DNA of 64,000 bases, taken from Ustilago trichophora (Eukaryota > Basidiomycota > Ustilaginomycetes > Ustilaginales > Ustilaginaceae). Shown in pieces: positions 49,455-64,000 of this stretch. The position numbers and the translations under genes were made by a program. The notes under the pieces are model-generated. The model was not told the origin of the DNA and ran no database searches. It was given only the letters and a program-made list of their open reading frames with translations. Numbering within the stretch: the stretch's first letter is position 1; each line of letters begins with the position of its first letter. Where the stretch lies: the NCBI GenBank assembly GCA_900323505.1, contig OOIN01000042.1:246558-310557 (forward strand), given 5' to 3'.

Positions 49455-52400
49455 ATGTCCAGCGTCAACCAACATGACCACAATCACCCCGTCGATGATC
49501 ATGACGACGATCTCTACCAGCACCTCAAGCACTGGCATAGCTCTGCAGATGAGTCCGACTTCCAGCTTATGGTCTATCAGATCAAGCACGTGCTTCGCAA
49601 ATGGTCAGAAAAGATCCCGGATCTTGTAGACAATCTCAGAGCCATCTCCAAATCGTCAGTCCTTGCCGATCTCTGCAAATCTCTCCGAGACAACTCCACC
49701 GCAAACCTCGACTCGCCCCTGGTAGCCAAGATTGTTCATCAGACCATCACTATTGAAGAGGCCGAGCTTCGAATCGGTAAACTCGTCTCATCTCACAAAG
49801 ATGGCTTCTCTGAATACCTCAAATCCCTCGACAATTTCGAGCTGCTGATCCTTTTTTCCGACGCTCTATTCGATCCGCCTGATTCTGAGTCAAGCCACAA
49901 CGAACCCGAGATCTTGAACAAGGACGAGGCAGATTCAGAAGTACGCCAGTCCTTCGCCGCCACCTTTAGGGGTCCCGCTGTCGAACTACTTGTGGCACAC
50001 CTCGAGAGTCACGAACGTGGTAATAAGCGTCATCGAGATGCTGCTGCACTCCGCCGTCAAGCAGAACGCCGTCAAGCAGAAGAATCAGACGACGTGGAAA
50101 TGCAAGACGCTGACTTACTTCCAGCCTCAACGTCCACACCCTCCTCCTCGCCTCTTGAACGACGTCTGGCAGCTTCCAATACGGCTCCGACTGTGCCCAG
50201 CTCCACCTCACCCTCAACTTCGTCCGAGGAACAAGACATGTACTACGCCAAGGTACTCCCTATCATCCAATCCTCTGGTTTCGGCAAGACCAAGCTCTGC
50301 GTCACACTCAGCGCTTCCCATCCCGGCATGTTGATTTGCATGCGCCCAGAGCCAACGGTGGTGGCAGTCTCAGAGCCAAAGGTGGCAGTCTCGTTTCCGC
50401 CACAAGACACCAAGGTTTTCGAGTACTTCAACAAGTGCTATGAAAAGTATTTCGTTGATGTCGGTGGCGTTCCTCTTGGGCTGGACATCCTCGAGCAGAA
50501 TCATGTTCACGTCTACGTCGTTTTTTTTCTCGCTGCCTACTGCAACGAGCTACATAGCCTCTTGAGCCAGATCATGCTCATCTCGGGCTGCCCTCCCCTA
50601 TCTCCATCCCTTGGAGACCCTGCCGCCACCCACCCGACCAATTCATCGCCGTCCGCCACCAACGATACGCATCAGGTCGCTCAGTGCTGGAACTCGGCCA
50701 TCCACGCCCTTGCCACAGCAATCCACGTCAAGCCTGACTTTCTTGCACAACTTGAGTTCCAGCCGCAGCATCCAATCTGTCCTCACAGTAAGGCTCGGGG
50801 CCAAGACTTTGCTAACCCCACTCCCTCCGCTATAGCCGCTTTGAAACGACGTTTCCCCTCTCAACACAGGGACTTCGTTGGCAAGCTTGCTGGCCCAACC
50901 ACACGCGCGGACATGCTCAAGCGCATCTGCGACCAAGCTGAAAAATACCTCGCCGAGTACACACCTACTGCAACATCTCGCGAGTATCTTGTTCCCCTCG
51001 ACAAACACCTCCGCCCAGCGCTTCTGCAGCTCGAGAGCCTCGTACCGTCATCGATCAAGGAAAGGACCTTTTTCTTCCTCGCTTTCGATGAGTGTATGAC
51101 TTTTTCAAGGATGCTGCCTCATATACGAAGGGTTTGGCATGCGGCCAAACCAGACCGAACTTGGCTGCTCCTCGTCGACACTAACAGCCGTATCGCCCCC
51201 ATAATCGGACGTGAAGCAAGAGACTCGACCCATCGCACCAAGAAAGAGATCTCACGCCTCACTCAGCCATTTGTTGACATGCCACTTGACGTCTACATCA
51301 CCCCAGAGGACAGCGATTTCATCCGGCAGCAAATTGCCGATGGAAACTTCACGCTCCGAGATGTCAACAAGCTCATCACCAGGATCGGACGCCCTCTGTG
51401 GAACGACAAGCCCTACACACATCCCGAGCACATCCTCCAACCACGCTACATCTTTGCAAAGCTCGTCCAACCCTTCACATGGGAATGGCCAGCGAGCATC
51501 TCTGGCAACAAGGATCACAAGTCCGACTCGAAGGCACTTCAGAACATCCTCGCCCTGGTCAGCCAACGAGTAGCCCTAGAGCACTCGATCCTAGCTAGAG
51601 ATCAGTCGTGGCTTGCTTACCTCCGTGGACAAGTTTCGCACCATTTGCGCTTCCTTTGTGACTTTTGTCAGGACAGCAACGTGATCACCACTACCATCCC
51701 CAGCGAACCTCCACTGAGCCTAGCCGCAACTTGGTCGTTCCGCTGCGGTACTCGAGAGCGTGTCTTGGAGAAATGGTCGATGGCGATCGACATGATCGGA
51801 TCTGCTCACTCGTCGATCGGACTCAACGTTGGCCTACAGGGCAAAGAGGGGGTGCGCATCCTCTGCAGCATCGCTGCTGACTTGGCAGCCAACCGTCGGC
51901 ATCAGTCGCTGGTGCTCAGGCGGTCGAGCTACGAAGGCATCACGGGCCTGATCAAGTTGAGCGAATGGCTGGCATGTCTTGTCGGAGCCGAACGGCAACA
52001 TGAGGCCTCTGATGACCCATGCTGGCTGTGGTGCTCACGCCAGTGGGTCAATTTTAAACACACGGCTGAGCTGCACAATCAAGTCCAAACAGGCACAAGC
52101 ATCAATCGAAACATGCTCGGCGAATTCTGGATGCGCCACGCCGCTATGCGAGGCGTCTCGAATCAGTGCGGTTGGGACATTCTTTTCCCCGTGTATGAAC
52201 ATGACTCCGACTCTCCTCCCATCGGAGACGAGCCTTTCCTGGCAAGCAAGCTCTCGTATGTTGCCATTCAAATAAAAAATTGGGCAGCAAGACCTCAGCC
52301 GCCCACGACCATCGGCCCCTCGCTTCCTGGGTTGGTGACGGGTGACAAGACTACCTCACTGGAACTGTTTTTCGACATCCGCGCACCTCAGGCAGAGGTC

Positions 52401-52730
52401 TCGTTGAGCCACAAAGTTCACGAGAATCACCCTTTCCAGGACGTCCATCGCCTTGTGATCAGAGGCAACTCTTCGGCCACCTTTCCCTTTGTGAAGGAAC
52501 TCGATGACTCTGCTAAACTCAAGATCCCAATCCTCTTTGGGCTCCCCACAGCAGGGGACGACGATCACGGCTATGACATGACCGAGTACATTCGTGAGGC
52601 CGGCTCGCATTTGGCAAGATACAGCGACCGAGCCGCTGTGGTCAAGGCAGGACATTTGAACATGACGCAGTGTATACCCGACACGATCAGCATCGAAGCT
52701 CAAAGCAGAAGTGGCAGAACATCTAGCTAA
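49455..52730 (+). CDS. Crinkler-like P-loop NTPase with possible PD-(D/E)XK C-terminus
   Basis: 1091 residues, one exon. YYAKVLPIIQSSGFGKTKLC (about 260-280) is a Walker A-type loop in the 'I.QSSG.GK' form seen in large fungal and oomycete NTPase-effector families. RTFFFLAFDECMTFSRML (about 537-553) is a Walker B with a DE pair. The region between is helical and contains HVYVVFFLAAYCNELHSLL. Toward the C-terminus, CGWDILFPVYEHD (about 905) followed by LSYVAIQIKNWAARP (about 935) fits the D...(E/Q)xK core of restriction-endonuclease-fold nucleases, as in CRN-type proteins. No signal peptide. The nuclease assignment is inference; the NTPase assignment is firmer. Another ATG at 49435 is out of frame. 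Confidence 0.6.
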   Translation: MSSVNQHDHNHPVDDHDDDLYQHLKHWHSSADESDFQLMVYQIKHVLRKWSEKIPDLVDNLRAISKSSVLADLCKSLRDNSTANLDSPLVAKIVHQTITIEEAELRIGKLVSSHKDGFSEYLKSLDNFELLILFSDALFDPPDSESSHNEPEILNKDEADSEVRQSFAATFRGPAVELLVAHLESHERGNKRHRDAAALRRQAERRQAEESDDVEMQDADLLPASTSTPSSSPLERRLAASNTAPTVPSSTSPSTSSEEQDMYYAKVLPIIQSSGFGKTKLCVTLSASHPGMLICMRPEPTVVAVSEPKVAVSFPPQDTKVFEYFNKCYEKYFVDVGGVPLGLDILEQNHVHVYVVFFLAAYCNELHSLLSQIMLISGCPPLSPSLGDPAATHPTNSSPSATNDTHQVAQCWNSAIHALATAIHVKPDFLAQLEFQPQHPICPHSKARGQDFANPTPSAIAALKRRFPSQHRDFVGKLAGPTTRADMLKRICDQAEKYLAEYTPTATSREYLVPLDKHLRPALLQLESLVPSSIKERTFFFLAFDECMTFSRMLPHIRRVWHAAKPDRTWLLLVDTNSRIAPIIGREARDSTHRTKKEISRLTQPFVDMPLDVYITPEDSDFIRQQIADGNFTLRDVNKLITRIGRPLWNDKPYTHPEHILQPRYIFAKLVQPFTWEWPASISGNKDHKSDSKALQNILALVSQRVALEHSILARDQSWLAYLRGQVSHHLRFLCDFCQDSNVITTTIPSEPPLSLAATWSFRCGTRERVLEKWSMAIDMIGSAHSSIGLNVGLQGKEGVRILCSIAADLAANRRHQSLVLRRSSYEGITGLIKLSEWLACLVGAERQHEASDDPCWLWCSRQWVNFKHTAELHNQVQTGTSINRNMLGEFWMRHAAMRGVSNQCGWDILFPVYEHDSDSPPIGDEPFLASKLSYVAIQIKNWAARPQPPTTIGPSLPGLVTGDKTTSLELFFDIRAPQAEVSLSHKVHENHPFQDVHRLVIRGNSSATFPFVKELDDSAKLKIPILFGLPTAGDDDHGYDMTEYIREAGSHLARYSDRAAVVKAGHLNMTQCIPDTISIEAQSRSGRTSS

Positions 52731-55421
52731 GCTATTTCATGTAATAGCGACGCGCCCGTAGTACCCTTTTCCAGTCAGATAGTAGGAGTCGGATGTGAAG
52801 GCCAAAAGCCTTGCCTGTGTGGAAGTGTCATCAATGCAAAGGGCCAGCCGAGTATGCACCATCACGGAGAAGAGATGTTATGGAGGATGAGACGACAACC
52901 ACGCTTTGTTTGTCTCAAATATCCATGCTTTGTAATAAAAATCATGAAAGTGTGTTACATTGAGAGAAACTACGTACAAACAAACAGAAGTGAGCTCGAC
53001 GGAAAGGTTGAGAGAGATCGACACAAGTCTCCTATCATTTCGTGGTGAGACAAACGACGAATTGAGCTCGACTCAACTCGCATATGCAAGCTCATGCACA
53101 CGTGCATAAAACCTGCAACAAGCAAGCTTGCCGAGGCAATTCTGAGACAAAGGACGGCCAAAACCTCTACTGAGGGTTATATGACTGTCTGGTCCTAGGC
53201 AAAAAATTATATGCAACTTTCTTGGGTTACAAGGTACTCCCCGCACAGGGTTGAGTGCTGATTTTTGTGGATTCATGTAGCATTTTGGGTGCTGATCAAA
53301 AGTGCTGGTGACCCCTAAGGCTGAAAGCATAATAAAATTTTGCGTAGGGTTGCGTCAAAGTTGGGGTCGGAGCTTAGGGGTAAAAAACTTTTTTGCTCCA
53401 ATCAGGCAACTCCAAGGCTTGTTGGATGCATCTAGGCTAGAAACTATGTTTCCAGAGTTTGCAGAGCCATCAGATGTGAATTGAGCGTGTGGGGGTGGAA
53501 TTAGTGCAAAAACGGCCAAATCCAAAGGGGGGACCATTGTAGCACCAACTTTTCGGAAAAAGTGAGCCCTTTTGCCTTGGTCTCTTAATGAAAGATGTGC
53601 ATAATGGTGCCAAATGGAGGTATGCACAGTGTCACAGTCTGAAGCTGGATGGTCATGATGGTACAGGGGTAAACGTGAAAACGCTACCCCTAAGTTTTAC
53701 CCCTAAGGGTCTCCAGCATAAGCGGCCTTATTAATCGGCCTTCTTTTCTCCAGATATATGATCAGTAGGCTGTGCCCTTCCATGTCACACTCTCAGCAGC
53801 CAGAATTGGTCCGACAGCCTCAGGGGTAAATTTACCCCTAAGGACCTCCGACATCAATCTAACATGTGAATGGCCTTGTTGATGCTCTAGCATGTCAGGA
53901 TCACATATCTGGCAGTGAAATTGCAATTGGACACCTCCATGTGCAGCTTTGTCCAAAAACACATATGCCTAGCCCTAGGCTGCGGTGCGCCAGCCGCAGG
54001 AGAAGCACCAGTCCGTCCCGCCAAAATGGCCAACCTGACCACGCTCCGTCAGCCTGAGGGACGCGTCAAAAAACACTGGTGCAGTGCCGCAACGGAAAAT
54101 TCTTTTTCCTTGGCTGGGCAGCGGACAGGTGGGTGACGGACGCGTCAAAATTCAGGGAAATTGCTAGCGTGACAGACACGCTCACCCACACTTCTCTAGT
54201 GCCTGACAGACCAATCCAACTTTTTTGGCTGAGCGGCCTACTCATGGAGCAGACTCACTGAGCTGTCCGTCACTTCACTGACTGGCAGACAGCATGAGTG
54301 ACAGACATGACTGACTGACTGACTTGGTGAAGTGACAGACGTGACTGACTGGCGGACATGATTGAGGAAGTGACCCGTGCTGCAGACATATGCAGTGATC
54401 AGATGTGTGACGGTGACCAATGTGTACCCATGGACTGCAGCAGACAGACAAGGCTCAAATGTCAACACTGACGGACAATGTCAAAAAATATGTCTGCCAA
54501 AAATCTGATCAGAATGCTGGCCTCAAAATTGAGAGCGCAATGTGTCCTTGGAGCAAGGAGCGTGATGTGTCTGGGCATGAGTAGACAGATTCTAATTGCA
54601 CCGCGCACAATTTGACTCTGCGCTGACTGACTGACAGACGCGTCTGCGCTGACTGACTGACAGACGCGTCAAATTTCAGTAATTTCATCTTGGCAGCGTG
54701 TACATCCTTCAACAGCACTCTGAACAGCAGCTGGTCCGTCAAGTCATGGCTCCTTTGTCTGGAAGCGTGTGAAGGACAATGTTGAGACAACAGTCAATGA
54801 CTCTCACGGCTGGAACCAACAAAGCTAACTCAGATGCTCCCAAGTGCGGACCTTTGCTTTGAGTGAGCTTTGTGTTTGACAGACAGATTTTCTCACAGCT
54901 TGACTTTGACGTACTTGTCCTTTGTCCGCCATGCACCCACATGCTTGTCTGTCCTTCACACGCTGTACACCTTTGTCTGTTGTCCGTTGTCTGTTGTCCG
55001 TCACACACCACACATCTTTGTCTGCTTGTTGCTCACCACACAGCTTTGTCTGTCCGTCACTGAAACAAAATTTTCCACACCGCTCACAGCTCTGCACTAT
55101 CCTTTCTTGTCTTGATTGCTTTACGGTGTGTGTCTGCGTGAGTGTGAGCGCAAGTGAAACCATCTTACCTTTGTACGTTTCCCTCTTGGACACATTGTGT
55201 GCTTCAAGTGGCTGTTGCTGTAACCCGTTACGCTTGCTGGAATCCTTGACAGTGTACATCTGACTGTGCTTGCTATGTGCGCTGCTTGTCTCCTCTGAAG
55301 CATATATACTGTGCCTTTCTGACCGTTGCTGACCGTCATTGCTCATCAATCCAACAATCCATTCCAGCTTCTCTCTACCGTACTCTACCACTTTTATCCA
55401 CCGCCAGCAAATTCTTCAACC
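52731..55421. other. Subtelomeric degenerate-repeat interval
   Basis: 2.7 kb without coding genes. It contains repeated TACCCCTAAG / CTTAGGGGTA motifs (53280-53850), many TGACTGAC/TGACAGAC words (54150-54500 and 54600-54670), an exact 26-bp tandem repeat (54619-54670) and several ACGCGTCAAA sites (54066, 54140, 54664). TTGTCTG/TTGTCCG words follow (54950-55055). The last part serves as promoter/leader of the helicase gene. Confidence 0.6.
54619..54670. repeat. 26-bp tandem repeat, two exact copies
   Basis: Units 54619-54644 and 54645-54670, each TGCGCTGACTGACTGACAGA followed by CGCGTC. Confidence 0.9.
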
Positions 55422-58400
55422 ATGTCTCAGCAATCTTTCCATCCTGATGACAGCATACTTGCTGCTGAACTTGTTGATGCAGGCATCAACACAATGGACG
55501 CAGTCAGTGATACGGACAGGTATGTTTGGGCAATCATCACCACACATCATCAATGATCAGCAGCTGACATCACTATTTGCATTTTTTGAATTCAGTCACG
55601 CTCTCCCTGCTGCCAACCAAGCCGCAAATCAAGAAACCACCATTTCCACTCCAGTGGATCCTCAGCACACCGCTCAGCTGGCACGCTTCAACTTACGCTT
55701 GGTGGACCATCCCCGCATCCTGCTCTGCACCCTGGACAGCTGTTGTCCTCAATTGCCGCTCATCCCAGACTTCAAGCACGTCACGGCTCACATCAAGAAG
55801 GTCCACAAGAAGCCGCTGGTTGGGTCTGCCAAGGATATGCTGCGTAGCCTCCTTGATGAACTGGATGTACCGTCTCCTGGCACGGTCTGCATCAACAAGG
55901 ATCTTCTGCCAGAGCGCATGATTCCTGAGCTGGGTGAGCTCTTCCAAGGCTACCGCTGCAACTTGTGCTCCTATGCCGTCCAAGCCAAGTCTGCTTTCTA
56001 CGAGCATCTGCGTGGGCATCCTGATGCTAAAGGCAGAGCATCATACACCCATCCTGTTCCCATGCAGAAGTTGCACAAGTGCGGCAAGAAGATCCGCTAC
56101 CTTCACGTCCGCAATCAAGATCTGGATCCCACACCGCCTCCTGCCATTCTCACCACCGCTCTGGATGCCAGCACCATCAGCGCCAATATCAAGACAAAGG
56201 TGGATGCCTTCCTCAAGAAGAATGAAGATTGCCTCTGTGAAGCAGACCTGCTCAAGCCAGGCATTCAGCCTGAATCTGCCAGCGGCAACATTGGTCCTTG
56301 GGCCAAGCAGCTGGGTTGGCATGCGTACTGGGCTGGCAAGCCTATTGTGGCCATCGGCGCACTCAGCAAGTCAAACAAGGTGTGGCCTGGTGCTCATATA
56401 GACTTTGTCCATTGGGTATTGGTCATGACACAGCAAGCAGCCGCAACATGGATGATGGCTTTCCTCAAGACTGGCAGGCAGGTGCAACAGACTTTCCGTG
56501 CCTACAGTCCTGAACCAAGCCAGCCGTACAACCTCAGCCTACCAACAGTCAAGAAACGTGCGGACATGTGGGCCTTTTTACTTGCTCTGCTTATCCATGC
56601 GGTCTTTGACGGTGTCTCTTTTGGTTATTACGGTGACAGTGACCAGACTGAGCATCTTGGTCTCAGCGCACACCTGGACTCTGTACTGCAAGATCTGCAT
56701 GATCTTTACTACGGTGCAGATGCAGACATTGATCCGCTCACTGATGAAGATCTGGCAAGCAAGGCAGTGCCGCTCCTCCTCCAACTCTCTCACCTCTTGG
56801 TCACGCAACAGCCAGAGGTGTATGGTGAGAATGACAAGCTTGCTTTGGTACGGCTGTTCCTCCACCTCTGCGTCAGCGCAGATGGCACTCCCATTCCCGT
56901 CAATGCCGCTACGTCCATCATTGCCAGCTTGGAGTTCTGCTGCCGTGCAGTGCTCTGGCAGTGGCTGTTGGATCCAGAAGATGGTGTGCTCATTGAGCGC
57001 TCTGCTGAGGAGATTGCTGCCGAGGTTGATCTACAGATGAAGCGCTATCTGTACAGCACCAGCAGCTCCGCCAGCTCATACCTACAATCCCTTCACCGGT
57101 ATGGCACAGTACTTGCGCAAGATGATGGCACCAACTTCCACTTTTCCTGGCAGCAAGATCTCAAGAGCGTCAAGTTTGGAACAGAGACCATCCAAGTGGA
57201 CCGTCTCCAAGCTCTGATGCATGGTGCGCAAAAGCGGGCAGAAGCTTTGCTACGTCAGCTCTGCCTTTTGCCAGAGGATGCATCACTTGCGCTCAACCTG
57301 AAGCACATTCTGGATGATCACCGCAACATGCAACCAGACTTCAGCTTTGTGGCCGCTTCTCCGGAGCTGCAGAGCATCAGCAGTGTTCTCTGCCGTGCTG
57401 CTGCTGGTAACGTACCTGCTGCGCAACCCCTCATGGATCCATACTCTGATGAGTTGGAGTTCGATGCAGATGCTGCCAATGCGTACTTCAGCATGCACAA
57501 TGAATTCACCAAGCTGCTTGCGGTGCTCATTGAGCTTGGTAGCGGTCTGCCTGAAAGAGGTACAGAGCTGCTCCAATTGCAGCACACCAACACGCTTGTT
57601 GGTCCACGCAACCTCTTTGTGCATGATGGCAGTGTCTTCACCGCTCTGCCCAGCAAGAAAGGCACTGGACGTCAAAAGGTGATTCCACGCTTCCTGCCAT
57701 ACCCAGTGGGATGCATGGTGGTCTTTTACGTAGCTCAGGTGGTGCCGTTTGTCCATCTCCTACATAATGCAGTGCTGCAGCCCCGTGCGGCCAGCTCTAT
57801 GCTCTTGGTGGACCATCACGGCAATGCATGGGAGACAAATGCCGTCACCAAGATGCTGCAAGCACTCTGCCAGGAGCACATCAGCTCTATCACGGCTGGC
57901 CTCAACATGCGCACTTGGCGGCAACTGGCAGTGAGCATTGACCGCAAGCTCATCCGTCCGAGGTCCATGACTGCAGAAGAGGTGTTGGACAGCGCTCACG
58001 ATCTTCAAGCTGGACATTCAACACGGACTGCAGAGCAGCACTATGGCCTGGATGCAAGCATGCTGCATCAGCTCACGCAAGAGAGCATGGATGTCATGTT
58101 GGAAGTGTCAGAGCGGTGGCATGCATTCTGGGGTATGCCATCCCGCTTTGAAGAGGACGTCAAGCCATATGACCACCTCATGGCAGGAAAGGCAGCAGGA
58201 GATGACTGCAAGGCAGTATCTTCACTGAAGCGGCAGCTGGATGCTTTGCAGGAGGACATGCGGTGTGTCAAGCAAAGGCTGGAGCATCCAATTGAAGTTG
58301 CTCCACCAAGCGCTACAAGTGCGGTGCCTGCTGCCCCCATTTCACGCTCTGCTGTGCTAGCAGAACCAGTCAGCAATGCACTCTTCAAGGTGACCGGCAG

Positions 58401-60411
58401 CCACCGCACCAAGACACTGGAGCAGGCCTATGCGCTCAATGCCATCTATGCCAAGGAGACACCACTGATCATTGTCATGGCCACTGGGTCCGGCAAGTCT
58501 GCACTTTTCATGGCACCGCTGCATTGGCTGCCGCCAGCCTCTGTCATTATTGTGGTGGTGCCATTCATTGCACTCACAGATGATCTGATGGAGCAGTGTC
58601 AGTGGGTTGGAATTGTGGCAAGCAAGTGGACAGGCTACCGGAGTGCAGACAGAGTAGAGGGCAGTCAGCTGGTCTTTGTTGCAGCAGAGAACTGCTACAG
58701 TCAAGCATTTGCCAACTGGGCGCAAGAGTTGGATCAGCAGAAGCGGTTGGCAGCCATCTTCTTTGATGAGTGCCATGTCTGCGTAACTCAAAACACCTTC
58801 CGTCCGGCAATGGAGAAGATCAAGGCACTCATCTCTGCTGTGCGGGTGCAGCAGTACTTCCTTACGGCTACGCTGCCACCAACTCTGGTTCCCACCTTCA
58901 AGACCACACTCTGTCTCCCGCAAGATGGTACTGGCATGATCAGGGCGGCCACCAACCGCAAAAACATCTCCTACAAGGTCCAGCAACTTACATCAAGTGT
59001 GGAAATGCCATTCCAAATCAAGCGTCTCCTTGAAGCTCACCCTGCCGGTGCAGTGATGATCTTCTGCAAGTCCACCACTGCAGCACAAACCACAGCGGAG
59101 GATCTCAATTGCACTTGCGTGATCGCAGACATGCCAGAGGAGCAGAAGCAGAGAACGGTTTCAACATGGTTGCGGTGTTCTGCCACAGAGACCAACACTG
59201 GCAAACGCGTCATTGTTGGAACAACAGCTATCGGCACAGGCATCAATCCGCAACATGTCAGTCTGGTGGTCCATTGCGGTGATACATGGGACATGGTCAG
59301 TTACGTGCAAGAGTCAGGACACGCTGGACGTAGTGGCAGTGGAGCATCAGCGGTGCTGTTGGCCACCAGAGTCCAAACACGTGAAGCACAGGTGCAGCTC
59401 TACATAGAGGAGCGTACTTGCCGGCGTCTGGCCATCTCACGCTATCTGGATGGAATGCAGGTAACCTGCCTCAGCCAGCCAGACTTTGCGCTGTGTGACC
59501 TCTGCCAGCAGCGTGTGGAAGGACCAGTCACACCGCCAAAGAAGATCATTGGCTTGGAGTCACCGCCAGAGTCTGACAAGCGTGAGCGGCAGCAGAATGG
59601 CAAGACCCAGACTGCTGGTCAACTCCAAGCTGCAAACAGCAGCAGTAGGCGGTTGCAAGTCAGCACCACGGCCTTGGATTCACCTACACCACGTCAGCGG
59701 CGGCATCAAGGTTTTACGGCAGCTCTAGACCTGAACCATCAGCACTCAGCAAGCAGAGGAGCGCCAAACCAGATATTATCCTCCACTGCTCAAAACCAGC
59801 TTCAGCCAGCATTGCCGGTTCTCAGTTTTACGCCTCCGCCATTTGCATTCAGCCTAAGTCCATCACCGGCACATCCACCTGTGCACATTGACATTGACAC
59901 ATCAAGCAGCAGATCGCTACTGCAGAGCCTTGCCGGTGTGTGCTCTTTGTGTTACCTCTTCCGCAACCAGCACACATGCTCTGGACAACATGGAATCCGA
60001 CACTCTTTCAGCAACTGCAACTGCTGGCCGCAAATCAAGGACAAGTTGCCACAATCAGAGCCACGCATCAATGCAACCTACATTGGCGGCCTCAAGCGCC
60101 GCATGCAGAAAGCAAAGCACATTGCTTGTTACGCATGTCTGGTTCCCATCAACATTTGCGCCAACACCAGCTCAACCAATTCTACAGCATGCTCACGCAG
60201 GTATGCTGACATTGTGCTGCCCGTAGTTGCGGCAGTGCTCAGATGCAGAGAGCACACTGCCAATGTGCTGCGGTTGATTGGCTTGGATCAGATGGACCCA
60301 CATGCGGTAGTGGTACAAGGTGAGCTAGGTACAGCCGTGACCTACAAAGGTGAGAGTATGCTTCTGGCATTTGCCATGTTTGCAGCGGCTGTAGAAGCAG
60401 CGGCTATGTAG
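55422..60411 (+). CDS. Telomere-linked RecQ helicase with C2H2 fingers and tyrosine-recombinase-like domain
   Basis: 1637 residues from two exons, 55422-55519 and 55596-60411 (GTATGT donor, CTGAC branch, TTCAG acceptor). Start MSQQSFHPDDSILAAELVDA. Order of parts: a Cys/His segment LCTLDSCCPQLPLIPDF with HVTAHIKKVHKK (about 76-105), then a C2H2 finger YRCNLCSYAVQAKSAFYEHL with RGHPD (about 151-175) and a long helical region. A tyrosine-recombinase-like block follows (about 680-850: LPERGTELLQLQ, GLNMRTWRQLAVSI, AGHSTRTAEQHYG). The RecQ helicase comes next: MATGSGKSALF (about 993), AIFFDECHVC (about 1088), YFLTATLPPT, VIVGTTAIGTGINPQHVSLV and YVQESGHAGRSGSGAS (about 1268). The tail is Cys-rich (CSLCYLFRNQHTC; CYACLVPINIC). 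Genes of this class sit at telomeres in Ustilago (UTASa) and other fungi. An AATAAA follows the stop. Confidence 0.88.
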
Positions 60412-60781
60412 ATAGAAGACTTTGCATGTTTCTCAAAATAAATCATTAATTGCATTTCCAGAGTCTGTGAAAATGCAGACAAAGTGGAGGCCTGACGCGT
60501 CAATGAGGTTGAATGAGTCCATCTCAAAGAGACGCGCAAATTTCAGAAATTGGTCCATCTCAAAGAGACGCGCAAATTCCAAGAATCAGTCAGTCTCAAA
60601 GAGATGGATGAAAATTCAAAATCAGTCCGTCTCAAAGAGACGGATCAAAATCCAAACTGGACACGTCTCAAAGAGATGGATCAAAATCCAAACTGGACAT
60701 GTCTCAAAGAGATGGATCAAAATCCAAACTGGACACGTCTCTTTGAGTTGGATCACACTTCCCATGGTACATCACACCACA
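60412..60781. other. Spacer with 36-bp repeats between helicase and dioxygenase genes
   Basis: Carries AAAATAAATCATTAATTGC (possible polyadenylation region, about 60436-60454) and the 36-bp repeat array. The frame of the downstream gene is open through the array (first in-frame ATGs 60473 and 60503). The array may therefore be translated as basic 12-residue repeats, or it may be a leader. Confidence 0.6.
60517..60758. repeat. 36-bp tandem repeat array, about seven units
   Basis: Units share the core GTCTCAAAGAGATGGATCAA followed by AATCCAAACTGGACAC or variants; each contains the small palindrome TCTC-AAA-GAGA. Units become more uniform toward the right, and the last one has the core inverted to GTCTCTTTGAG. 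The length (36 = 12 codons) keeps one frame open throughout. Confidence 0.9.
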
Positions 60782-61915
60782 ATGACATACATACCTGTAC
60801 CTGGCGGCACTTCTCAAGCAGATCAGAAGCGCATCAAGAGGCTGCAGTACAGCCTTGCGTCCATCAATGCCAAGACGTACACCCTTGACAAACAGTACAA
60901 GGTAATGGAGAAGGATCGGCAGGCAAAGTGCTCTTGGACCTTGCCCATCATCACCGGCCAGGCCATCACCTCTTTTGATGACTGCAAGAACACAGTCTAC
61001 ACCCACAACATCAGCCTCCAGGACAGCAAGACCGGGAATGTCTTCCTCCAGCGCTTCTGTCCGGCCACTGAGTCTGCTGCCTCCAGCATGACCAAGAGCT
61101 ATAGCAAAGGTGCCACCTTGTTCCGCAAGGTCATGGAGACAGCCAAGTGCAAGAAACACAAGGCAGACACTCGGCAGACAGTGGATCAGCAGCAGCACTT
61201 TCCACACTACCACTTTGGCATCTGGTACGACAAGATGATGGTCAGCTTGACTCTATTGGAAGAGACTCAGCAGCCAGGCAGGGAGGAAGGCAGGCAAGCT
61301 GTGGCGGAGTTCTGCATCTGGTTCAAAGAGTTCACCCGCAAGTTTGTTCTCCCCATCATCAAGAATGGCCACTCTGGTCTCTGTGATACCTTCAGGTCAG
61401 AGCTTCAAGAGCGCATGGATGTCCACTTCCCTTGGGCAGAGAAGCAAGTGGATGACCTGGACCGGTACTGCCACCCGCTGTACTCCACCATCTCACCATT
61501 CCTTGGCTTCTCCAGCAATGTGCACAAAGACGTGAAGGATGCAGACGTGTCTATCCTGGTCAACCTCGGACAACATGCTCTCTTGCAGCTGCCAGAGTAT
61601 GGCATAGCAGTGGAGCTGCAACCACAAGACATCGTCATGTTCCTTTCCAACAGCGTGGAACACCTCACCGTCCAACACCCAGCTCATGTAAAGGCAAGAT
61701 CAGACCCTGGAGAGCGCATGGCCATCAGCTGCTTCTTCCGCAAAGGGCTTCAGCAACAGAGAGAGCCAAAGAAGCACAACCATACATACTACGCAAGGAA
61801 GGCAGAGGAGGAGCAAGAGGCAGAGCGGCAAGCAGCATCAAAGAAGCGCAGGGTGGAGCAGTGCGGTGAGGCTGGGGGACTTGCCTCTGGAGCTGTAAAA
61901 AAGAGTCCAGAATGA
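60782..61915 (+). CDS. Putative 2-oxoglutarate/Fe(II) dioxygenase, TET/JBP-like (first copy)
   Basis: 377 residues from MTYIPVPGGTSQ; a longer N-terminus through the upstream repeats is possible. An N-terminal coiled stretch precedes FPHYHFGIWYDKMMVS. The catalytic pattern is FLGFSSNVHKDVKDADVSIL (His248, Asp250), then a jelly-roll-like stretch (NLGQHALLQLPEYGIAVELQ, PQDIVMFLSNSVEHLTVQHP) with distal His294. Arg312 in GERMAISCFFRKG is the expected 2OG-binding Arg. TET/JBP enzymes oxidise 5-methylcytosine or thymine in DNA and are expanded in basidiomycetes beside transposons. The family call rests on this HxD...H...R pattern and on the neighbour paralogue. The C-terminus is basic (KKRRVE), possibly nuclear. 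Substrate unknown. Confidence 0.65.
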   Translation: MTYIPVPGGTSQADQKRIKRLQYSLASINAKTYTLDKQYKVMEKDRQAKCSWTLPIITGQAITSFDDCKNTVYTHNISLQDSKTGNVFLQRFCPATESAASSMTKSYSKGATLFRKVMETAKCKKHKADTRQTVDQQQHFPHYHFGIWYDKMMVSLTLLEETQQPGREEGRQAVAEFCIWFKEFTRKFVLPIIKNGHSGLCDTFRSELQERMDVHFPWAEKQVDDLDRYCHPLYSTISPFLGFSSNVHKDVKDADVSILVNLGQHALLQLPEYGIAVELQPQDIVMFLSNSVEHLTVQHPAHVKARSDPGERMAISCFFRKGLQQQREPKKHNHTYYARKAEEEQEAERQAASKKRRVEQCGEAGGLASGAVKKSPE

Positions 61916-62032: not shown

Positions 62033-62142
62033 CCAGGCTGGGCTCTCGAGAAAGATTCAACCAGTAGACACCAGCTCCACCATAGAATCATCCATCATCG
62101 TTCCATATCCACTTGCCAGCAATCCAATCATCCATTCCAGCC

Positions 62143-63168
62143 ATGCCAGCCAAGGGTGAAGCAGCTTTGGATCGAAAGAGGAAGAGGAATGCAGAGAGAG
62201 ATGCCTGCAGGAGGCAGAGCTATCGAGACTCCCAGGAAGAATCTACCCACATTGATCTGTCTCGACAACATCATATCAAAAGGCACACAGACCTCAGCCA
62301 GTTTGATCTTATCGAGTGCAAAGCACTAGCAGAAGGCAGCAGCAGCCATTCAACTCGACCCAACCTTACTCTAGCAGACAGAGACACCAAAGAGATCGTG
62401 CTCCAGAGGATTGCACCCACCAGCTATGCCAAGTTTCTCGAAGCCAAGAAGAGTTCCCTCATAGGCAAGCACCTTTATGATCAATATCTGGCAAAGAAAC
62501 CCATCCCCATCTCGACAATCAGCACACAGAAGCTCAAGATCAAGCTCACCAAGAGAAAAGTCATCGAGCATCACCTAGGAATCTGGCACTCTCGAGGCAA
62601 ACAGACTCTGGACTTCACCAAGGAGACCACTGACCCTCGATACAAACCTGAAGCACTCGATCTTCTCTTCTGGGCAAGGATGCACACAGACCTGGTGATG
62701 AGAACTGCACAACCTTTGATCCATCCCAGCTTCAGGAGCAACATTTCATCTCGATCCAAAGGCAGAAAGTGGCTAGCATCCATCTTTGGTTCCAAAAGCA
62801 TCGAGCTTCTCCATCCCTGGTGGACTACTGTAGCCTTCTTCTCGAACTTTGCAGGTGGCATCCATCTCGACAATGATGACTGCATTCCATCCTTCTTATT
62901 CAACTTTGGAAAAGCTGCTTGGATCGAGTTACCAGAGTTCTCAGTCAAGATCCTTGTCGAACCTATGGACTTGGTCATCCTCAACTCTCGATCTTTTTAC
63001 CACAGGACCAGACCCTTCGTTCCTCCTGGACACTCTGCTGCTGCAAACAGGTGGGCATTCAGTGGATTCTTTCGAGATGCCATCTATCATAGAGAAACAG
63101 TGTGCAAGGTAGCAGAATGGAGGCTCGATAGCATCTTTGGGTATCAGTCAAAAGGAGGATCATCGTGA
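62143..63168 (+). CDS. Putative 2-oxoglutarate/Fe(II) dioxygenase, TET/JBP-like (second copy)
   Basis: 341 residues from MPAKGEAALDRKRKRNAERD, a strongly basic start that could bind DNA. It shares the order of its neighbour: HHLGIWHSRGKQTLDF corresponds to HFGIWYDK. AGGIHLDNDDCIPSFLFNFG supplies His241 and Asp243, and ELPEFSVKILVEPMDLVILN with SRSFYHRTRP supplies His287. NRWAFSGFFRDAI supplies Arg303. The spacing from the first His to the distal His is 46 residues in both proteins, supporting common descent despite low identity. It is the gene closest to the telomere. As for its partner, DNA base oxidation is a family-level inference and RNA or protein substrates are not excluded. Confidence 0.62.
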   Translation: MPAKGEAALDRKRKRNAERDACRRQSYRDSQEESTHIDLSRQHHIKRHTDLSQFDLIECKALAEGSSSHSTRPNLTLADRDTKEIVLQRIAPTSYAKFLEAKKSSLIGKHLYDQYLAKKPIPISTISTQKLKIKLTKRKVIEHHLGIWHSRGKQTLDFTKETTDPRYKPEALDLLFWARMHTDLVMRTAQPLIHPSFRSNISSRSKGRKWLASIFGSKSIELLHPWWTTVAFFSNFAGGIHLDNDDCIPSFLFNFGKAAWIELPEFSVKILVEPMDLVILNSRSFYHRTRPFVPPGHSAAANRWAFSGFFRDAIYHRETVCKVAEWRLDSIFGYQSKGGSS

Positions 63169-63816
63169 CTTCCAGCCATTTGGCAGGAGGTCTCGTTCCA
63201 TCCAGTTGGGGGGGATTTTGGCCTCCACTCTGAAATTCAGCTTTGACCCCCAGATTTCCTTTCGACTTGAAAAAATTTGCTCTCCACCAAAAAGATTCTC
63301 GTGTTTCCTGGCTGGGAGCTTCGGGCCTGCTTGGCTGCTCTGTGCAAATTGGAAATAATTTGTAATCAATTCCCATCTCCTGTTAAGCTGGGTCCCCCAA
63401 AATCATCAATTAATTCAATCATGTTTGCGTTCCTCAGGTCTCTGCACTCAAAAGATGCCACAACTTGAGTTTTTCACTCCAAGCACCCAAAGGGTTTATA
63501 TACATTGCTTTACAGCCATGTCCCTGTATCTCAGCAACCAGACATGCTGGCTCTACAATCAATTGCTCATGACCTTCCTGAGCTCCAGGAGAGTGTCACC
63601 ATATCAATAGCTCTTCACAATTGCCAGTCACCGTAGAGCTATGCTCACATGGCTGTAAGGTCACCTATATACTTCCTTACAGCCATGTGACCATGGAAGC
63701 ATCATATCAAGAGCATCAAGTGTGATATTTGGCTCTTGACCATCTCTTGGATGTCAGGAGTGTCATGAGCATCAGAGATGTGGGTTTGGACAAGCCATGA
63801 TGCTGCAATGGTCACA
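63169..63816. other. Terminal subtelomeric spacer
   Basis: No gene. A perfect 16-bp inverted repeat lies at 63645-63660 / 63675-63690. A related motif (TATATACATTGCTTTACAGC, about 63499-63518) appears as a degenerate direct copy upstream. Confidence 0.6.
63645..63690. repeat. Perfect 16-bp inverted repeat near the telomere
   Basis: TCACATGGCTGTAAGG (63645-63660) and CCTTACAGCCATGTGA (63675-63690), with a 14-bp loop containing TATATA. Confidence 0.9.
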
Positions 63817-64000
63817 GGGTTAGGGTTAAGGGTTAGGGTTAGGGTTAGGGTTAGGGTTAGGGTTAGGGTTAGGGTTAGGGTTAGGGTTAGGGTTAGGGTT
63901 AGGGTTAGGGTTAGGGTTAGGGTTAGGGTTAGGGTTAGGGTTAGGGTTAGGGTTAGGGTTAGGGTTAGGGTTAGGGTTAGGGTTAGGGTTAGGGTTAGGG
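63817..64000 (+). repeat. Telomere, (TTAGGG)n
   Basis: About 30 TTAGGG hexamers running to the last base, with one variant TTAAGGG near the inner edge (63826-63832). The orientation is that of the 3' G-rich strand at a right chromosome end, so the assembly appears to reach the terminus. Confidence 0.98.

Follow-up and report, generated by a model that had tools for sequence, protein, structure and literature searches.

The stretch of DNA analysed here (the window) comprises 64,000 nucleotides of Ustilago trichophora contig OOIN01000042.1 and forms the right end of that contig (C41), in an assembly of 38.8 Mb and 45 contigs. Near its end lies a gene for a telomere-linked helicase (TLH) with a predicted tyrosine recombinase (YR) domain, which may belong to a telomere-borne mobile element. 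Coordinates are window positions on the + strand unless otherwise stated. The gene occupies the open frame 55339-60411, which, in the list of open reading frames (ORFs), carries recombinase-like boxes together with a RecQ core. Comparison with the 1,637-residue homologue P0001, also from Ustilago trichophora and 99% identical in the recombinase-type domain, allowed us to deduce the splice join: exon 1 (55422..55519) opens with the ATG at 55422 and is followed by a 76-bp GT...AG intron (55520..55595) and by exon 2 (55596..60411), which encodes the Cys/His N-terminus, the YR domain, the RecQ core and a Cys-rich C-terminus. The spliced protein has 1,637 residues, and residue numbers refer to it unless stated (unspliced numbers are higher by 53). 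Its best match is an annotated DNA 3'-5' helicase of Ustilago trichophora. By their profile matches the helicase domains are certain, comprising a RecQ DEAD helicase domain (58420..58884; PF00270, 3.5e-14) and a helicase C-terminal domain (59017..59337; PF00271, 9e-13), and the core also matches the structures of RecQ1, WRN, RECQ5 and BLM. A RecQ-type core in a subtelomeric multicopy gene, with at least 28 scored matches, places the protein among the TLHs. Telomere repeats, (TTAGGG)n, fill the last 185 bases (63816..64000; Tandem Repeats Finder) and constitute the outer end of this copy.

A preliminary description of this DNA had proposed that a clear RecQ core is preceded by three tyrosine-recombinase boxes, RGTELLQLQ, MRTWRQLAVSI and AGHSTRTAEQHYG, spaced by about 120 and 40 residues. 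We found the boxes in this order in the frame 55339-60411, all of them N-terminal to the RecQ core, with Arg-I, Arg-II and Tyr at residues 687, 808 and 849 (unspliced 740, 861 and 902), that is, 121 and 41 residues apart. The position given for Tyr (849) was exact, whereas those given for the two arginines (688 and 806) had to be corrected. The YR-type catalytic domain extends over 57457..58143 (residues 654-882, or about 707-935 unspliced) according to AlphaFold2 models, structural alignment and conservation. Structure prediction, put forward as a check of the proposal, came out in its favour: in two AlphaFold2 models built from different alignments the predicted fold is, by structural alignment, that of a tyrosine recombinase.

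Conservation of the Arg and Tyr residues had been proposed as another check, and it was found among the homologues. The alignment holds 148 relatives including P0001, from three homology searches that supplied 18, 120 of 131, and 16 (among 7,987 candidates scored), and the denominators below are the rows with a residue in the column concerned. Arg-I (codon 57556..57558) is kept in 136/142 homologues and Arg-II (57919..57921) in 124/139, the exceptions to the latter being Q, H, W and C. The beta-hairpin Lys (57658..57660; K721, unspliced K774) is present in all 148, the His of the GHS box (58015..58017; H840, unspliced H893) in 139/143, with R as the exceptions, and the putative nucleophile Tyr (58042..58044) in 143/144. 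Glu690 is kept in all 142 aligned homologues. Among the 133 rows that hold all five columns, 114 have the five catalytic-type residues intact, and R-K-R-H-Y is kept in each of the 22 full-length copies of this genome, one of which has a stop codon elsewhere. A chance triple of motifs was rejected, as both the conservation and the predicted fold contradict it. We also observed that the Arg-I and Arg-II changes, in P0009, P0012, P0052, P0078, P0096 and others, are solely to His, Cys, Gln or Trp. Such residues are what CGN codons would yield on C-to-T decay, and the substitution pattern suggests decay of copies driven by methylation or by a process like repeat-induced point mutation.

The residue set common to tyrosine recombinases and topoisomerases IB consists, in order, of Arg-I, Lys, Arg-II, a His/Trp position and Tyr. 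Both the modelled catalytic-domain fold and this residue set, in this order, agree with membership of the YR/topoisomerase-IB fold superfamily. In the HxxR-like box, recognised as such in the preliminary description, the second Arg is conserved but the first position is not: residue 858 (unspliced) is Arg here and, among 140 rows, N in 83, R in 23, S in 10, Q in 10 and H in only 7. Since the His of HxxR is not conserved, we file the protein as a divergent member of the fold superfamily and not as a canonical R-H-R-Y enzyme. Sequence profiles gave no recombinase family match for the stretch N-terminal to the helicase, either with Pfam for the protein, with Pfam and PHROGs for seven domain sequences, or in a profile search of PDB sequences. 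For the seven domain sequences, Pfam returned a single unrelated match (0.027) and no match to PF11917 (the DUF3435 captain), and PHROGs two unnamed families only (0.06 and 0.47). The domain profile gave 0 matches against PDB sequences, and the 33 pattern matches found when viral contigs were searched with the domain alignment included no relative. Profile-profile comparison against 81 sequences of the XerD family brought Arg-I, Arg-II, His and Tyr into register at a probability of 2.4% (E 0.019); 1 of 60 block-shuffled profiles scored higher, and the result lends weak support to the YR relation.

On the centromere side the element ends at a fixed inner terminus, CCTAG-CC-CTAGG (53968..53979; end sequence CCTAGCCCTAGG), which forms the junction with the chromosome. 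At least 28 genomic places are matched by the TLH protein, all near contig ends; these 28 are all that were scored of 61 candidates. When the loci were aligned to the window, similarity ended at 53968 in most of them, the element side of the junctions reading CCTAGCCCTAGGC onward and the opposite side differing between loci. We read 28 junctions, from 27 of the 28 TLH copies and from one truncated tandem element, and they show 25 unrelated flanks meeting the element at one and the same nucleotide. The first base is C in 27 junctions and T in one (L006), and three copies have one extra CCCTAG unit. The remaining TLH copy (L027) has the end motif with 2 mismatches, and its flank is outside the 28 read. 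Searched genome-wide, the end motif occurs 38 times, and a reversed-pattern control 0 times. As this search finds intact ends only, the fixed end is judged on the copies found by protein. The 38 motifs are spread over 34 of the 90 contig ends, none of them more than 14.5 kb from the end, and 37 point to the nearer end; the sole exception is on a 27.9-kb contig (C22, L039) that has a telomere on the side to which the motif points. Telomere repeats are present at all 19 ends read, out of the 34 motif-bearing ends, the window's included.

The terminus is adjoined by an inverted repeat, CTGCGG-TGCGCCAG-CCGCAG, with an 8-base spacer (53980..53999). In the 28 places it is perfect in 13, as CTGCGG/CCGCAG in 8 and CCGCGG/CCGCGG in 5; 10 others have CCGTGG/CCGCGG, with one G-T pair, and 5 have broken pairs. 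The sub-terminal region as a whole, from the terminus to the gene (53968..55338), holds 25 GACNGAC motifs on both strands in 1,371 bases, against 1.3 on average and at most 5 in 300 shuffles; 21 were counted in the 54 kb upstream and 3 in the 8.5 kb downstream. These motifs are possible protein-binding sites. A different but related terminus, CCTAGCCCTAGCCAAGGCC, was seen near the end of another contig (L061; C38 near 468222) and might mark another family of elements that shares the (CCCTAG)n end.

Empty sites were sought in the genome with fifteen flanks and then six more, and related unoccupied copies were read, most of them being paralogous copies and not proven alleles. In 16 independent empty copies the bases after the junction are CCTT, CCTG, CCCT, CCTG, CTTT, CCAA, CCTG, TCCC, CCTT, CCTA, CCTG, CCTG, TCTG, CCTA, CCTG and CCTA. 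Eleven of the 16 have CCT exactly, and 15 match it in two or more of the three bases (binomial p 3.9e-17 for CCT, at its window frequency of 0.0151). For L002, for example, a copy on contig C16 matches the first 1.86 kb of the flank at 94%. At L011, L017 and L019 the alignment ends 2-3 bases before the junction and the position was extended by counting; for L009 one relative gave TCCC and another diverged before the junction, and this locus was scored among the misses. Sites departing from CCT are L006, L003, L011 and L009, with relatives 86-91% identical, and L008 (95%). Relatives of 91% identity show CCT at L012 and L017, and the misses therefore cannot be put down to identity alone. L014 also fits CCT and stands outside the 16, and no usable empty site was available for L001, L005, L007, L016, L018, L025 and L026; of the flanks of L023, the second (C2:5642) lay outside the search. 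The base preceding the junction is C in 18, G in 6 and A in 1 of the 25 flanks, and positions further out are mixed.

Three of the targets fall within older element copies, at window positions 57417, 59046 and 54616, where the older copy is shortened and the newer one starts at its own terminus. The junction at 59046, in the RecQ region of the older copy, is found at two places, the left ends of C2 (L023) and C30 (L024/L028), as tandem elements. At the outer side no such constancy exists: depending on the copy, telomere repeats begin at 54404, 57647, 58490, 58652, 60493, 61400, 63081, 63270, 63486, 63628, 63815 or beyond, and the longest copies read have 4.4 kb extra. Telomere is joined on at the outer side at points that vary from copy to copy.

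Between the helicase gene and the telomere are two TET/JBP-like dioxygenase ORFs. The first (60422..61915) matches PF12851 at E 7e-5, below its cut-off; the second (62113..63168) has no Pfam match of its own and is a paralogue of the first (BLASTP 2e-20) and of a third dioxygenase-like ORF (2e-46) found beyond 63815 in longer copies (L038:3489-4433, - strand; PF12851 0.045, below its cut-off). Directly after the helicase gene, at the start of the first ORF, there is a tandem array of 36-bp units (60516-60755) that may be non-coding, with the real start of the ORF near 60771. A 2025 survey describes TET/JBP genes in several groups of DNA transposons of rusts, mushrooms and Pezizomycetes and suggests an escape from methylation-based silencing; in its main text, as available, the terms tyrosine recombinase and Ustilag- are absent (PMC12730594). 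Such a cargo fits a mobile element. At the N-terminus of the TLH protein, a C2H2-like Cys/His module (55945..56046) was seen with PF23075 at E 0.018, below its cut-off, and OrsD (PF12013) exceeds its threshold at the N-terminal end only in relatives (P0006, P0016, P0021, P0084 and P0017). One of these, P0017, is a 1,076-residue homologue with OrsD and the YR domain and without the helicase domain; YR may exist without RecQ, or the gene model may be partial. Just inside the element boundary, an open frame of 1,091 residues (49455-52730) has no Pfam match at E 1.

Taken together, we consider it probable that this gene supplies the recombinase for a mobile element which resides at telomeres, has a single defined end and moves by terminal replacement at CCT. 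The inner end is fixed, the empty sites have a CCT core, the elements are placed terminally and outward, and the outer end is variable. The RecQ-fused protein has a predicted YR fold and conserved catalytic-type residues, and we infer that YR chemistry makes the junctions. In this sense, the fixed inner terminus, the CCT core, the outward terminal placement and the iterated sub-terminal motifs lend support to the suggestion, already made in the preliminary description, of a mobile element that spreads chromosome ends. A classical two-ended transposon was rejected, as no outer terminus was found and the 38 termini point outward, and a Helitron or a retroelement was rejected because no such domains appear in the proteins scanned. 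Misassembly was likewise rejected: even contigs fused wrongly at the edge of a repeat would require that edge to be fixed, and CCT comes independently from the empty sites.

The main rival is telomere capture by host enzymes, in which a free linear element or a template copy would be joined to broken ends by microhomology-mediated end joining or break-induced replication, the YR domain being a bystander or having another role. Three bases of CCT at a junction are of the size of the microhomology used by such pathways, and truncated, healed ends are common in this genome. Nevertheless, the element side is identical in the 28 junctions, bar the first-base variant of L006 and the three copies with an extra CCCTAG unit, whereas variable trimming of the element would be expected from end joining, and priming by microhomology on an integrated copy might begin at any point within it. 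Most sites also use the same trinucleotide. We regard host capture as rather unlikely. A second possibility is that homologous recombination among chromosome ends spreads an ordinary repeat of the subtelomere, as with the Y' elements of yeast, and that the YR domain is a degenerate relic. The 22 full-length copies differ by 1 to 29 of 4,911 nucleotides (mean 12), as ectopic exchange or gene conversion leaves, and the literature attributes to these genes a host role in maintaining telomeres, as far as the available text of these sources goes (PMC10532341, PMC7473861). Homologous exchange, however, copies existing junctions and cannot make 25 different ones, with unrelated flanks, at one nucleotide, so that spread of this kind is rejected, and the five residues, intact in 114/133 homologues, are unlike those of a relic; the reading as a whole appears improbable. 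Finally, a YR-fold protein acting at telomeres as a topoisomerase-IB-like enzyme, or as one that seals ends in the manner of protelomerases, and not as a transposition recombinase, seems to us very improbable indeed.

From the inside outward, the layout reads CCTAGCCCTAGG at 53968, the GACNGAC array, the YR-RecQ gene transcribed outward, the TET/JBP-like genes and the chromosome's own telomere. If the gene does encode the recombinase of a terminal-replacement element, the protein would gather on the GACNGAC array, its fingers presumably binding those sites, and the YR domain would recombine two CCTs, one at the inner terminus of the element and one in a different chromosome end. Recipient DNA distal to the latter would be lost or exchanged, and the element and telomere would become the new end. 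The RecQ motor might drive branch migration or copying out to the telomere, and the dioxygenases might counter DNA methylation. Whether fungal TLHs, at least the OrsD-YR-RecQ branch in smuts, mushrooms and the lichen fungus Piccolia ochrophora, are the recombinases of terminal-replacement elements, a class of mobile DNA so far unrecognised, with one real end, a borrowed telomere and YR exchange at CCT, is a generalisation for and against which we see about equal weight. The system would be new in kind, on DNA evidence from one genome and a predicted catalysis. No description of a recombinase in TLHs was found among the open-access matches listed, a set that leaves subscription papers and most preprints uncovered. 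If this generalisation is true, the upregulation of TLHs in telomerase-negative survivors would reflect element mobility and not helicase action alone. Furthermore, a recombinase domain with a fixed end and a short core would offer a testable account of why TLHs fill chromosome ends and why these ends vary, and the same account would address the rebuilding of ends without telomerase.

Publications on smut TLHs go back to 1998 (as cited in PMC10532341). In the available parts of the two studies, that of Ustilago maydis survivors treats TLHs as helicases (PMC10532341), and that of Agaricus bisporus ends gives subtelomeric RecQ helicases without any domain other than the helicase core (PMC7473861). 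Fungal TLHs such as UTASa of Ustilago maydis and the subtelomeric RecQ of Agaricus bisporus var. burnettii likewise have a RecQ-like core and are subtelomeric and multicopy, as far as those texts go (PMC10532341, PMC7473861). Compared with these published telomere-maintenance helicases, the system described here stands out by a domain with the YR fold, by its fixed mobile terminus and by a core in the target. Cryptons are also of the tyrosine-recombinase type, and in the text available their 4- or 6-bp terminal direct repeats, to which the CCT core is comparable, are considered the recombination substrate, their tetrad is R-H-R-Y and the word helicase is absent (PMC3212892). A Crypton is bounded by two termini, with a circular form proposed as its intermediate, whereas here the inner terminus is the only one found and the outer end is a variable telomere. 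With a variable HxxR His (R, R and Y being conserved) and two repeat-bearing termini not found, the element departs from the Cryptons in defining features.

Its layout resembles that of Starships, in which the YR gene stands first at the 5' end and is transcribed inward and which have a short target motif; Starships differ in having two ends, in inserting inside chromosomes and in having no known RecQ fusion. Helitrons, which have a hairpin close to one terminus, similarly bring a tyrosine-using enzyme of the strand-cutting type together with a helicase. In them, according to the part of the survey available, it is an HUH nuclease (PMC12730594). Here, in contrast, a YR fold is joined to RecQ and the target is CCT at chromosome ends, and a Rep/HUH nuclease was not found in the Pfam scan of the protein, which gave nothing beyond the helicase domains and some weak, unrelated matches. 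Pfam showed no reverse transcriptase in the four ORFs scanned or in the extra ORF. Telomere-terminal retroelements (HeT-A/TART, Athena, MoTeR), known among others from flies and rotifers, sit at chromosome ends in one orientation, with one fixed and one variable end, and use reverse transcription. The element shares with them the terminal site, the single orientation, the single fixed end and the variability of the other end. As a DNA-recombinase element, it would parallel these retroelements, and it would provide a natural means of replacing chromosome ends at a known short site.

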